Positions 17,684 to 58,465 of a stretch of DNA of 64,000 nt are shown here, piece after piece (position 1 is the first letter of the stretch; each line of letters opens with the position of its first letter). Position numbers and translations under genes: made by a program. The DNA comes from Stakelama marina (GTDB lineage: Bacteria > Pseudomonadota > Alphaproteobacteria > Sphingomonadales > Sphingomonadaceae). The stretch covers positions 310,001 to 374,000 of the forward strand of contig NZ_JAGRQC010000004.1 of NCBI RefSeq assembly GCF_018122655.1. Reading direction: 5' to 3'. The notes below the pieces were generated by a model, which saw nothing but the letters and a program-made list of their open reading frames with translations, was not told the DNA's origin and did not search any database.

Positions 17684-20251
17684 CTATCTGCCGAGCATTT
17701 CGGAGAGCGCCTGGGCGAAATTGGTGGCGGTATAGGGTTTTTGCAGCACCGGAACGTCGCCGTGGATCGCGGGAACCTCGAACTGTTCGCCATAGCCCGT
17801 CGCGAACAGGAAGGGGATGCCCGCTTCGTGTAGCGCGGCGGCGACGGGCAGGCTGTTCTCGTTGCCCAGATTGACGTCGAGGACCGCCAGCGAAAGGTCG
17901 CTCCGTTCGATCTCGCGCATCGCCTCGGCAACGGTTGCGGCGGTGACGACGCGCGATGCGCCCAGGCCGGTCAGAATATCCTCGGCATCCATGGCGATGA
18001 TGAGGCTGTCCTCGACGAGCAGGGCGGTGCCGTCGATCAGGGCCTCGGCCGAACCGGTTTCCGCGTGGCGTTCGCTCTCGCACGGGCCGTGCGCAGGCGG
18101 CGCGCCGCCGGTATCGACAACGATATGGCGTTCGGGGATGCAGAAATCGGCCTCGAACCCGGTCAGCGGGTAGCGGACATCGGCCTTGCCGCCGAGGTCA
18201 TAGGGGATCGAGCGCTGGATGATCGTGCTGCCGAAGCCCTGCCGCGTCGGCGCCTGCACCGGGGGACCGCCCTGTTCGCGCCATTCGATCCGGCAATCGC
18301 CATGCTCGTCGAGCAGCCAGTGGACGTCGATCGAGCCGCTGTCCGACAACGCGCCATATTTGGCCGAGTTGGTCATCAGCTCGTGCAGCACCAGCGCCAT
18401 CGTCGAAAAGGCCTGCGGGTGGAGCAGGATATTTTCGCCCGACAGGTTGAGCCGCGACACGCGCTGGCCGAGATAGGCCGCGGCCTCGGTTTCGATAAGC
18501 CGCTTGAGCGGGGCTGCCGACCAGTTGTCGCGCGTGATCTGGTCATGCGCCCGCGCGAGCGCTTCGATGCGCCCTTCGAGCAGCGCGACATAGGCGGCCG
18601 GATCGGCATCGGCATGGCGGCTCTGGCGGACGAGACCGCGAATCAGGCTGAGAATGTTGCGCACGCGGTGGTTGAGTTCGGCGATCAGCAGTTCCTGCCG
18701 CTCGGACGCGCGGCGACGCTCGTCGCGTGCCTCGTCGGACAGGCGCAGCACGACCTCGATCAGCGAGGCGCGCAGCATCTCCGCCACGCGGCGCTCGGAC
18801 GGGGTGAAGGGTTCGGACCGCCCCCGGACCTCCTCCTGCCATGCCTCGAAGCTCTTTCGCGGGGTGAGGCGCGCGCCGTGTTCGCCGTAGCTGGCGGGTT
18901 TGTGCGGATCGCCGGCCCAGTTGACGGTGCGGACCTTTTCCTGCCGGAACAGCAGCACATAATCGCGCGGCGACCGCGAGATCGGAATGGCGAGCAGACC
19001 GGCGGCGACGTCCGAATAGCGTTCGGCATCGGGGATCAGTCCGGAGAGATGATCGGTCGCGAACACTTCGCCGGCGGCCATCGCGTTGAGGCGGCGGACG
19101 ATCGTCGGCAACGCATCGCGCGGGGCAACCGTGCCGCTGTGCGCGACCTTGCCGTCGATCCAGATCGCGACGCCGTCGCACGGCACCGTTTCGCCCAGCA
19201 TCGAGCCGAGCCATTCGGGATCGTCGAGCAGGCTTGCATCGCCGGCTATCGCCGCGAGCAGCCGGTCGCTCGTTTCGCGCGCTCCACGTTCATAGGCCGA
19301 GAGCGCCTGGCGTTCGCGGCTTTCCAGCTTGAGCGCGAACATGTGACCGAACAGTTCGGCGATCGAGCGGCGTTCGAAATCGGGGCGACGCGCGCTGTAA
19401 TGGTGACAGGCGAACAGCCCCCATAGTTTGCCCTCGACGATGATCGAGATCGACAGCGACGCGCCGACACCCATATTGGTGAGATATTCGATATGGATCG
19501 GCGAGACCGAGCGCAGGACCGATAGCGAGAGATCGATCGGCTCGCCCTTCTCATCGCGCTGGGGCACGATCGGAACCGGCGTGTCGGCAACATCGACGAT
19601 GATGCGGAACGGCGTGCGGACGTATAGCTTGCGCGCCTGTTGCGGAATGTCGCTCGCCGGATAGCGCAGCCCCAGAAAGCTGCCGATGCCCGACCGTGCC
19701 GCTTCTGCGACGACATAGCCCGAGCCGTCGGGGTCGAAGCGATAGACCATGACGCGGTCGAACCCGGTGAGCGCTCGGATCTGGCGAGCGCCTTCGCGGT
19801 AGAAGGCGGGAAGTTCCTCGGTCGCATCGAGGCGCGACATCATCGCGCGGATGACGCTGGCCGTGTCGGCATCCGATGTTTCGGCGGAGGGTTCGCCTTC
19901 GACGATAATCAAACCGTCGGTCATGTGGACCGCGAAATCGAACGTCCGGTCGGGATGGTCGGCGTCGATCGGAAGGCCGAACACGCGCTCCACCGCATCA
20001 GCGCCGCGCAGCAACGTCAGCCGGTTGCGAAGCGCGTGGACGGTATCGCCCGGCATATGGTCGGAAAGGTTCGTGCCGAGCATATCTTCGGCGGCGGCAC
20101 CGAAAAACTCGGCCGCGTTCGCCGATACCCGTCGGATCAGCCAATCCGAAGAGAGCGCGACAAGAAAGCCGAACGACTGGATCGCACCAAGCTGGTGGAT
20201 CGGTTCGCGGTCGCAATTGGTGAGATCTACTTCGAAATCTGTGGAAGCCAC
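17684..20251 (-). CDS. Bacteriophytochrome hybrid HWE-type histidine kinase with C-terminal receiver
   Basis: A red/far-red photoreceptor kinase of about 855 aa. Domains in order: PAS with the bilin-binding Cys13 (VDLTNCDREPIHQLGAIQSF), GAF with the PASDIPQQARKLY motif, PHY, an HWE-family kinase whose H-box is LIAELNHRVRN (near 525), and a receiver with Asp near 792 (AVLDVNLG) and an FATGYG motif. I prefer GTG 20251, two bases after the heme oxygenase stop and behind GAAAGAG, over GTG 20272. Cotranscription with heme oxygenase, which makes biliverdin, supports a working chromophore. HWE kinases with receivers often feed general stress pathways in this group, but the output here is unknown. 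Confidence 0.93.
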   Translation of the reverse strand: MASTDFEVDLTNCDREPIHQLGAIQSFGFLVALSSDWLIRRVSANAAEFFGAAAEDMLGTNLSDHMPGDTVHALRNRLTLLRGADAVERVFGLPIDADHPDRTFDFAVHMTDGLIIVEGEPSAETSDADTASVIRAMMSRLDATEELPAFYREGARQIRALTGFDRVMVYRFDPDGSGYVVAEAARSGIGSFLGLRYPASDIPQQARKLYVRTPFRIIVDVADTPVPIVPQRDEKGEPIDLSLSVLRSVSPIHIEYLTNMGVGASLSISIIVEGKLWGLFACHHYSARRPDFERRSIAELFGHMFALKLESRERQALSAYERGARETSDRLLAAIAGDASLLDDPEWLGSMLGETVPCDGVAIWIDGKVAHSGTVAPRDALPTIVRRLNAMAAGEVFATDHLSGLIPDAERYSDVAAGLLAIPISRSPRDYVLLFRQEKVRTVNWAGDPHKPASYGEHGARLTPRKSFEAWQEEVRGRSEPFTPSERRVAEMLRASLIEVVLRLSDEARDERRRASERQELLIAELNHRVRNILSLIRGLVRQSRHADADPAAYVALLEGRIEALARAHDQITRDNWSAAPLKRLIETEAAAYLGQRVSRLNLSGENILLHPQAFSTMALVLHELMTNSAKYGALSDSGSIDVHWLLDEHGDCRIEWREQGGPPVQAPTRQGFGSTIIQRSIPYDLGGKADVRYPLTGFEADFCIPERHIVVDTGGAPPAHGPCESERHAETGSAEALIDGTALLVEDSLIIAMDAEDILTGLGASRVVTAATVAEAMREIERSDLSLAVLDVNLGNENSLPVAAALHEAGIPFLFATGYGEQFEVPAIHGDVPVLQKPYTATNFAQALSEMLGR

Positions 20252-20253
20252 GC

Positions 20254-20793
20254 TTACTCTTTCGCCAGCCACCTCCGTCCGGCGGCGTCGAAGCGGCGAA
20301 AGACCGATCGTGCGACGGCGACAGCGTTTGATAATTCGGCAGGTTGGTACAGTAACGAATCAAGTTTGGCCAGCAAAGTTCGCCATTTGTCGGGCGATTG
20401 ATGTAAATCAAGATAATTGCTGGGCAAGTTGTCGGGAACGCGCCGCGCCAAAAAGCGACCGCCTAGTCTTGATCCTTCGAGGACATAGAGCGTTCCGGCG
20501 ATTTCGCTGGTTCCAGCAACTTGCATCTGGTCAAGGACCGGCAACATACAGTCGAGCCGCGACAGATCGTCGAGGAGCGCGTCTCCACGCCGGCGTTCGG
20601 GCCAGTCCTCGACAAGCTGGGCTGCGCCGGCTGCATCGAGCGCGGCTTCGAGCGGCAATACGCATTCGGCATGCGCCGCGAGGAAGCGCGCATAGCTGTC
20701 GCGCTCGGCAAGATCGAACCGGGCGAACAGTGTATCGAGCGCTTCGTGCTCGGCGCGGGTGCCGGTTCTGAGCGCGGAGTGCGCGGCGTTCAG
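20254..20793 (-). CDS. Heme oxygenase (biliverdin-producing), probable CTG start
   Basis: The frame encodes a BphO/HmuO-type heme oxygenase of about 179 aa: RTGTRAEHEALDTLFARFDL with His16 as likely proximal heme ligand, ARFLAAHAECVLPLEAALDA, and the distal-helix region GTLYVLEGSRLGGRFLARRV. It would open heme to biliverdin for the downstream phytochrome. The first ATG in frame (20658) would delete the heme ligand. Between it and purB there is no ATG, GTG or TTG. A CTG at 20793 overlaps the purB stop as CTGA, mimicking the common ATGA coupling, and gives the expected length. A sequence error at that base is the alternative. Confidence 0.8.
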   Translation of the reverse strand: MNAAHSALRTGTRAEHEALDTLFARFDLAERDSYARFLAAHAECVLPLEAALDAAGAAQLVEDWPERRRGDALLDDLSRLDCMLPVLDQMQVAGTSEIAGTLYVLEGSRLGGRFLARRVPDNLPSNYLDLHQSPDKWRTLLAKLDSLLYQPAELSNAVAVARSVFRRFDAAGRRWLAKE

Positions 20794-22100
20794 GCGAACA
20801 CCCGGTCGAAGATCGTATCGACATGCTTGAAGTGATAATCGAGGTCGAAGCGCGCCTCGATCTCTTCCGCGGGCAGCGCGGCGGTTACTTCATCGTCAGC
20901 CTTTAGCAGGTCGAGCAGCGACAGTTCGCCGTCCGATTCCCAGACCTTCATCGCGTTGCGCTGGACGAGGCGATAGGCGTCCTCGCGGCTGACGCCGGCC
21001 TGGGTGAGGGCGAGCAGCACGCGCTGCGAATGGACGAGCCCGCCCATGCGATCCAGATTCTTCTGCATGCGCGCGGGATAGACGACGAGCTTGTCCATCA
21101 CGCCGTTGAGCCGCGCGAGCGCGAAGTCGAGCGTGATCGTCGCGTCGGGGCCGATATAGCGCTCGACCGACGAATGGCTGATATCGCGCTCGTGCCACAA
21201 GGCGACGTTTTCGAGCGCGGGCGTGACATAGCCGCGCACCATGCGCGCGAGACCGGTGAGGTTCTCGGTCAGCACCGGATTGCGCTTGTGCGGCATAGCC
21301 GACGAGCCCTTCTGGCCGGGCGAGAAATATTCCTCCGCCTCGAGCACTTCGGTGCGCTGGAGATGGCGGACCTCGACCGACAGGCGCTCGATCGACGAGG
21401 CGACGACGCCCAATGTGGCGAAAAACATCGCGTGGCGGTCGCGCGGGATGACCTGCGTCGACACCGGCTCGACGGTCAGGCCGAGCTTGTCAGCGACATG
21501 CGCTTCCACGCGCGGGTCGATATTGGCGAAGGTGCCGACCGCGCCCGAGATGGCGCAGGTCGCGACATCGGCGCGCGCGGCCGTCAGCCGGTCGCGGTTG
21601 CGCGCGAACTCGGCATAGGCCTCCGCCATCTTGAGGCCGAAGGTGACGGGTTCGGCATGGATGCCGTGGCTGCGGCCGATGGTGGGGGTGTATTTATGCT
21701 CCTCGGCGCGGCGCTTGAGCGTTTCGAGCAGTGTGTCGAGATCGGCGAGCAGGATGTCGGCGGCGCGCGCGAGCTGCACCGCGAGGCAGGTGTCGAGCAC
21801 GTCGGAGCTGGTCATGCCCTGGTGCATGAAGCGCGCTTCGTCGCCGACCTGTTCGGCCACCCAGGTCAGGAACGCGATGACGTCGTGCTTGGTCACCGCC
21901 TCGATCGCGTCGATCGCCGCGACGTCGATCGTCGGCTTGGTCGCCCACCAGTCCCACAGCGCTTTCGCCGCCGATTGCGGAACGACGCCGAGATCGGCGA
22001 GCGCCTGCGTCGCATGCGCCTCGATCTCGAACCAGATCGCGTATTTCGATTCGGGCGACCAGATCGCGGTCATGTCGGCGCGGGCGTAGCGGGGGACCAT
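20790..22100 (-). CDS. purB: Adenylosuccinate lyase
   Basis: PurB acts twice in purine synthesis, releasing fumarate from SAICAR and from adenylosuccinate. The protein is 436 aa from ATG 22100, preceded by CAGGAA. It has the fumarase/aspartase-superfamily signature GSSAMPHKRNPVLTENLTGL. Also present are TSSDVLDTCLAVQL and SHGIHAEPVTFGLKMAEAYA, which supply catalytic and substrate-binding residues. It opens MVPRYARADMTAIWSPESKY as in alphaproteobacteria. An upstream in-frame start at 22145 is not needed. It leads a cluster with heme oxygenase and phytochrome. Confidence 0.97.
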   Translation of the reverse strand: MVPRYARADMTAIWSPESKYAIWFEIEAHATQALADLGVVPQSAAKALWDWWATKPTIDVAAIDAIEAVTKHDVIAFLTWVAEQVGDEARFMHQGMTSSDVLDTCLAVQLARAADILLADLDTLLETLKRRAEEHKYTPTIGRSHGIHAEPVTFGLKMAEAYAEFARNRDRLTAARADVATCAISGAVGTFANIDPRVEAHVADKLGLTVEPVSTQVIPRDRHAMFFATLGVVASSIERLSVEVRHLQRTEVLEAEEYFSPGQKGSSAMPHKRNPVLTENLTGLARMVRGYVTPALENVALWHERDISHSSVERYIGPDATITLDFALARLNGVMDKLVVYPARMQKNLDRMGGLVHSQRVLLALTQAGVSREDAYRLVQRNAMKVWESDGELSLLDLLKADDEVTAALPAEEIEARFDLDYHFKHVDTIFDRVFA

Positions 22101-57268: not shown

Positions 57269-58465
57269 ATGACCATCACGCCGCTCATGCCCGTTTATCC
57301 ACGGTGCGATGTGCGTCCGGTGCGAGGCGAGGGCTGCTATCTGATCGGTGAGAATGGCGAGCGCTATCTGGATTTCGCGAGCGGAATTGCGGTCAACTGC
57401 CTGGGGCACGGCCACCCGCATCTGACCAAGGCGGTGCAGGAGCAGGCCGCGACGCTGATGCACGTGTCGAACCTGTACGGCAGCCCGCAGGGCGAAAAGC
57501 TTGCCAAGCGGATCGTCGATCATTCGTTCGCCGACACGGTGTTCTTCACCAATTCGGGCGCCGAGGCGGTCGAATGCGCGATCAAGACTGCGCGGCGCTA
57601 TCACCATGCCGAGGGGAATCCCCAGCGCCACGATCTCATCACCTTCAACTCGGCTTTTCACGGCCGCACGCTGGGGACGATTTCCGCCACCAACCAGGCG
57701 AAGATGCGCGACGGGTTCGAGCCGCTGCTGCCGGGCTTCAAATATTGCGACTTCAACGATCTCGACGCCGCGCTGGCGATGATCGACGAGAACACCGCGG
57801 GCTTCCTGGTCGAGCCGGTGCAGGGCGAGGGCGGCATCCGCGTCGCATCGGACGAGTTCCTGAAGGGTCTGCGCAAGGCATGCGACGAACACGGGCTGAT
57901 GCTGGTGCTTGACGAGGTGCAGTGCGGCTATGGCCGGACCGGCACCTATTTCGCGCACGAACAATACGGGATCGAACCCGACATCCTCGCCTCCGCCAAG
58001 GGCATTGGTGGCGGCTTCCCGCTGGGCGCGTGCCTCGCCACCGAGAAGGCGGCCAAGGGCATGGTGTTCGGCACGCACGGATCGACCTATGGCGGCAACC
58101 CGCTTGCCATGGCGGCGGGCGAAGCGGTGCTCGACGTGATGCTCGAGGACGGGTTCCTGGATCATGTGAAGGCGATGGGCGAACGGCTGCGTTCGACGCT
58201 CGAACAGATGATCCCCAATCACGACCATCTGTTCGACAGCGTTCGCGGCAAGGGGCTGATGCTTGGGCTGAAGCTCAAGGAACCGGCGGTGGCGCGCGAC
58301 TTCATGGGCTTTGCGCGCGAACATCACGGGTTGCTGCTGGTCGCTGCGGGCGAAAACGTGCTGCGCATCCTGCCGCCGCTGGTGATCGAGGAGAAGCATA
58401 TCTCCGAATTCGCCGAGAAGTTGAGCGACGCAGCTCGGGTGTACAGCCCGCCTGCCGACGACTGA
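57269..58465 (+). CDS. argD: Acetylornithine / succinyldiaminopimelate aminotransferase
   Basis: A 398-aa class III PLP aminotransferase that acts in arginine synthesis, moving an amino group to N-acetylglutamate semialdehyde. Motifs: [20 protein letters not shown] (phosphate binding), [31 protein letters not shown] (Asp to pyridine N), and the PLP Lys near 244 in [22 protein letters not shown] precedes ATG 57269. It lies 86 bp before argF with a dispersed palindrome between, and probably shares its transcript. Confidence 0.95.

Follow-up and report, generated by a model that had tools for sequence, protein, structure and literature searches.

A probable CTG start codon for heme oxygenase overlapping the purB stop codon in Stakelama marina

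A heme oxygenase (HO) paired with a bacteriophytochrome forms the known BphO-BphP arrangement, and CTG is a start codon allowed by translation table 11. Stop-start overlaps are known in which translation of the second gene is coupled to the first by termination-reinitiation at ATGA, GTGA or TTGA, and the accessible text of PMC3887535 gives the four-nucleotide overlap set as (A/G/T)TGA. The strings GTGA, TTGA and CTGA are absent from the accessible parts of PMC6728339 and PMC12548453, whose silence on CTGA is no evidence. Initiation at CUG has been described in bacteria. According to the available portion of PMC11497404, which reports cryo-EM of Escherichia coli ribosomes with CUG in the P site, CUG complexes were less stable than those with AUG, GUG or UUG, and CUG is not a common non-AUG bacterial start. 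For the E. coli gene pop a putative CTG start preceded by a Shine-Dalgarno motif has been proposed, and the authors considered CTG to be rare but sometimes used, citing earlier cases (PMC7103648, accessible part). In Mycobacterium tuberculosis reporters, CUG put in place of AUG served as a non-start and lowered expression strongly (PMC11260477, accessible part), and the accessible part of an E. coli N-terminomics study listed 628 ATG, 50 GTG and 10 TTG among 688 annotated starts (PMC13245402). The use of CUG as a non-start, together with the lower stability of CUG complexes, counts against a CTG start as far as these partial sources go. In the literature searched, most of it outside subscription papers, no CTGA overlap used as a start and no HO behind purB was found.

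The locus described here is on the minus strand of a 64,000-nucleotide stretch of the S. marina genome (contig NZ_JAGRQC010000004.1), the whole of which is referred to as the window. It encodes purB, HO and a bacteriophytochrome in that order (Table 1). The purB gene ended ...GTG TTC GCC TGA, with its stop at 20792-20790. Membership of HO in PF01126 was indicated both by the profile match above cut-off and by a proximal histidine, as His16 aligned with H26 of pa-HO (PDB 1sk7), which we take to be the heme ligand of that protein; no NCBIfam HO model matched the HO protein at E ≤ 0.001. The HO product is probably used by the bacteriophytochrome encoded next, and HO probably makes the pigment of the light sensor. 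The receiver domain of the phytochrome was C-terminal, in the same protein as the HWE kinase, and its Response_reg match of 26.6 bits was below the cut-off of 30.2.

Table 1. Features on and around the purB-HO junction of the window
Feature	Position	Strand	Remarks
purB, adenylosuccinate lyase, 436 aa	20790..22100	-	TIGR00928 496.5 bits (cut-off 326.2); PF00206 and PF10397 above cut-off
Heme oxygenase (HO), 179 aa from CTG, stop TAA	20254..20793	-	PF01126 30.2 bits (cut-off 23); phmmer to pa-HO 1sk7 E 9e-9
Bacteriophytochrome, HWE kinase and receiver domains	17684..20272	-	start GTG 20272 or GTG 20251; PF08446, PF01590, PF00360 and PF07536 above cut-off
Putative CTG start codon of HO, CTGA overlap with purB stop	20791..20793	-	sole candidate before His16; NTGA start in 32 homologous pairs, CTGA in 4
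Shine-Dalgarno-like GGGTG inside the purB C-terminus	20799..20803	-	5 nt before CTG; 16S-tail duplex -6.4 kcal/mol
Codon 16 of HO, His (CAC), presumed heme ligand	20746..20748	-	aligned with H26 of pa-HO 1sk7
Codon 46 of HO, TTG, first canonical start codon in frame	20656..20658	-	given as ATG in the original prediction

Relative to purB, HO is read in the -1 frame, which was open from just after a TGA at 20892-20890, inside purB. The original prediction had described a frame open well before a first ATG at 20658; the open frame was confirmed, while the triplet at 20658 proved to be TTG, and the first in-frame ATG was codon 83 (base 20547). Its statement that no ATG, GTG or TTG is found between purB and the histidine was borne out by the codon list, which contained none of ATG, GTG, TTG, ATT, ATC and ATA from the upstream stop to codon 45. 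When the near-cognates CTG, ATT, ATC, ATA, ACG, AAG and AGG were scanned up to codon 16, CTG 20793 was the only one to occur, and it appears to be the only plausible HO start before the presumed heme-ligand histidine. Its last two bases are the first two of the upstream TGA, and the downstream frame is set at -1, as in a stop-start overlap. HO also has the two properties by which a CUG-initiated gene may be recognised, namely the lack of any other usable start codon and a conserved N-terminus. The genome of the window encodes IF3. The same geometry had been said to recur many times in the window, which was fair: 3 ATGA and 5 GTGA in-frame overlaps were counted among 21 tandem pairs, using a crude gene model that missed the purB-HO pair itself. 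With this model a second in-frame CTGA overlap of two tandem frames was seen at 58462-58465 on the plus strand, where a GTG is located 20 bases behind the stop, so that the CTG need not be the start.

A search for HO over 295 genomes of the genus gave matches at E ≤ 1e-30 in 68, and a search of a 151-genome sample gave matches at E ≤ 0.001 in 116. Examination of 86 HO loci revealed a same-strand upstream purB in 45, and further checking added two, giving 47 pairs. An exact four-nucleotide purB-HO overlap was present in 32 of these (TTGA 19, GTGA 6, CTGA 4 and ATGA 3), which is a lower bound, as HO matches weaker than 1e-30 were taken partly and only from the 151-genome sample. Since 32 pairs share the exact overlap, the NTGA site is indicated as the HO start. 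This comparison with relatives was the check that the original prediction had itself proposed, and its placing of the start at the CTG overlapping the purB stop was upheld, with 28 homologous junctions reading TTGA, GTGA or ATGA and four reading CTGA. The window junction thus does not have the ATG, GTG or TTG found at those 28. The CTGA rows were L003 (the window), L004 (genome G039), L011 (G097) and L033 (G200).

In the other 15 pairs HO was apart from purB, by 79-90 nt in 12, 592 nt in two and 1134 nt in one, and started with ATG (11) or GTG (4). ATG was the start in 3/32 overlaps versus 11/15 spaced pairs (Fisher p 2e-5, kinship ignored). Overlap goes with weaker start codons, of which CTG is the weakest by the stability data in the accessible part of PMC11497404. 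Within 100 nt before HO, the heptamer GTGGATC was present in 9 of the 12 pairs spaced by 79-90 nt (L005, L006, L007, L008, L010, L034, L035, L036 and L037).

An order-wide pattern scan of 396 genomes, a sample outside which G039 and G200 lay, gave eight matches: the window, G097 and six purB genes ending CTGAAY with no HO at the junction. In those six, reading from CTG met a stop after only 3-21 codons, versus 179-187 codons in the four HO genes; two chance-level tblastn matches (E 0.009 and 0.005) were found in the six, away from the junction. A scan of genome contigs for related loci returned 74 stretches that fitted a pattern, none of which was confirmed as a relative.

The base preceding the purB TGA was compared in purB genes that ended in Val/Ile-Phe, one codon and TGA, which was the case in 56 of 295 genomes. 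This base was C in 32, T in 19, G in 4 and A in 1. The 23 purB genes with an overlapping HO had T (16), C (4) or G (3), whereas the 33 without one had C (28), T (3), G (1) or A (1). The latter comprised 31 with no HO by tblastn in the fetched stretch, mostly about 1.5 kb behind purB, and two with HO 592 nt away. Ignoring kinship, Fisher tests gave p 5e-7 for C (28/33 versus 4/23) and p 5e-6 for T (3/33 versus 16/23). Across the purB genes that belong to the 47 pairs, GCT made up 49 of 2608 Ala codons, with five more reading GCN; as GCT is so rare, the letter before TGA looks chosen for the start codon. The T at the purB end would on this comparison serve HO, and a CTG start appears disfavoured yet tolerated. 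At L054, L055 and L126 (G241, G242) purB ended GCT TGA as in TTG-start species and HO was 592 nt downstream with an ATG start; the T there could be left over from an overlap that has since been lost. Likewise, purB of L120 (G230, around 1504) ended GCT TGA, with no HO within the 3-kb fetched stretch, and it is possible that this genome lost HO.

The four CTG genes showed 64-84% amino acid identity over codons 2-45 and 47-57% over the rest of the protein. Over codons 2-45 dN was 0.13-0.36 versus a dS of 0.36-1.25, and dN was below dS in all six pairs of the four genes; dN and dS were calculated on 6 of the 47 rows, with two added to the four CTG rows. As codons 3-45 lie beyond the purB stop, their constraint is not accounted for by purB. 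Downstream of the CTG, canonical codons first occurred at codon 46, 121, 61 and 45 of the four genomes, so that initiation at one of them would leave out His16 and, in G200, also the EGSR motif, which was present in all 47 HO proteins. Of the near-cognates tested, only the CTG at codon 1 was common to all four within the first 16 codons. G097 alone had an additional ATG 50 codons upstream, inside purB. Judged by their codons, the four CTG HO genes are intact and constrained at the N-terminus, and are not wrecks.

The GGGTG motif was found 5 bases before the CTG in three of the four CTG genomes, the fourth having GAAGGA. The purB Arg codon at the GGGTG site was CGG in those three, compared with CGC in 24 and CGT in one of 25 TTG or GTG overlaps; CGG likewise occurred in 8 of the 28 purB genes that had C before TGA and no HO. 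No 16S gene was found in the window's own assembly or in three of five others queried, and the 16S tail used for duplex energies was read in G039. The four CTG genomes gave -6.4, -6.4, -6.4 and -9.1 kcal/mol. Duplexes of ≤ -5 kcal/mol, a threshold of our own choosing, were formed at 4/4 CTG starts versus 3/28 other overlap starts (p 0.001) and 9/31 HO-less purB genes (p 0.014), by Fisher tests that ignore kinship. Other overlap starts and HO-less purB genes did not differ significantly (3/28 versus 9/31, p 0.11). With a shorter 16S core, strong duplexes were formed in 4/4 CTG versus 1/28 other overlap starts. The strong motif reads as compensation for a weak codon, and ordinary initiation may contribute, given that such a motif is beside all four CTG starts. 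Against the reading as compensation stand the CGG codons of HO-less purB genes, the lack of a significant difference between other overlap starts and HO-less purB genes, and the relatedness of the four genomes: HO descent or exchange makes them non-independent, and two or fewer events may underlie the Shine-Dalgarno association.

In the purB tree (75 rows) the window (L003) was placed beside L049, a TTGA row (support 92/96), within a clade of 38 (100/98) and away from the other three CTG rows; a single CTG clade was weakly rejected (AU p 0.031). In the HO tree the window paired with L033 (SH-aLRT 91), and the four CTG rows were on one side of a branch with a support of just 10.9. The trees leave two readings, more than one origin of CTG or movement of HO together with its junction. 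Over the last 31 purB codons (20790-20885) the window was nearest to L013, L015, L014, L017, L046 and L011 (84-88%). L013, L015 and L014, at 87-88%, are outside the window's purB clade, in which L009 showed 84% and others 81%; the other two CTG rows showed 78 and 76%. This is a weak hint that the 3′-end of purB may have been exchanged.

HO is very probably translated from CTG 20793, as a genuine weak start with Shine-Dalgarno help and probably with help from ribosomes that end purB too. The position of the start, the C in four genomes, the N-terminal constraint and the nearby Shine-Dalgarno-like motif are what the sequences themselves indicate; from these we infer initiation at the CUG. A ribosome ending purB at UGA, or a 30S drawn to GGGUG in the last purB codons, would place the CUG, which begins one base upstream of the UGA, in the P site. 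Initiation with fMet-tRNA would put Met at position 1 and give the N-terminus Met-Asn-Ala-Ala-His. The four-nucleotide geometry fits a coupling-dependent start, and coupling to purB would follow from it. The weak codon would presumably hold HO below PurB, yet leave biliverdin sufficient for the bacteriophytochrome encoded next.

The main competing explanation is that HO is silent or decaying in the CTG genomes, its start having been lost through a purB-silent change to C. C is the commonest purB base without HO and is depleted under an overlapping HO, so it may be unselected here, with little or no HO made. This is nevertheless improbable, as the four frames have stayed intact over long branches, dN is below dS in codons 2-45, EGSR is retained in all four, and all four have the strong Shine-Dalgarno-like motif. 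It is far less probable that ribosomes slip by -1 near the purB end, yielding a minor fraction of PurB-HO fusion. The HO frame is indeed the -1 frame, and was open for 21-63 codons before the CTG in the four genomes, but in none of them did the final 30 purB codons contain an X XXY YYZ heptamer, and in 12 relatives an HO from this family has its own ATG or GTG start 79-90 nt past the end of purB; the frameshift was rejected. Simpler YYYZ runs were seen near the purB end in three of the four CTG genomes, and none in the window.

Translation from TTG 20658, the first canonical codon in frame, would give a 134-aa protein from which the conserved N-terminal part with His16 was removed, and in G200 the corresponding codon is 121; this start was rejected and is scarcely credible. 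Hardly any weight can be given either to an error at base 20793. The window is known from a single assembly, but the same CTGA recurs in G039, G097 and G200, so the C is not a one-genome error, and this candidate was also rejected.

A further reading, possible but on balance doubtful, builds on translation from CTG 20793: the junction may be an evolved low-output setting in which start letter and Shine-Dalgarno strength are traded off, with the CTG module retained in several lineages. A strong motif would then accompany CTG, most TTG and GTG starts would have a weak one, and the purpose would be to keep a light-sensor enzyme at a level far lower than that of the housekeeping enzyme encoded ahead of it. 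One homologous junction that has all four NTGA letters is a natural matched series, in which the effects of start letter and Shine-Dalgarno motif on the output of an overlapping gene can be compared. Additionally, a gene finder limited to ATG, GTG and TTG would cut HO at codon 46, losing the presumed heme-binding histidine, or would miss HO.

Compared with known systems, the purB-HO junction shares with stop-start overlap coupling the four-nucleotide overlap, the -1 downstream frame and a Shine-Dalgarno-like motif in the upstream gene. The 28 purB-HO overlaps with a canonical start are ordinary members of this class, and the window differs from them by the first letter, C; C is, from the junctions compared, a well-supported candidate for the fourth start letter of this known junction class. 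With CUG initiation in bacteria it shares the codon, which here is recurrent in four genomes at one homologous junction and is fused to an upstream stop. With BphO-BphP it shares a PF01126 protein, a sequence relative of pa-HO, encoded directly before a phytochrome kinase, but differs in that HO is directly behind purB and overlaps the purB stop.
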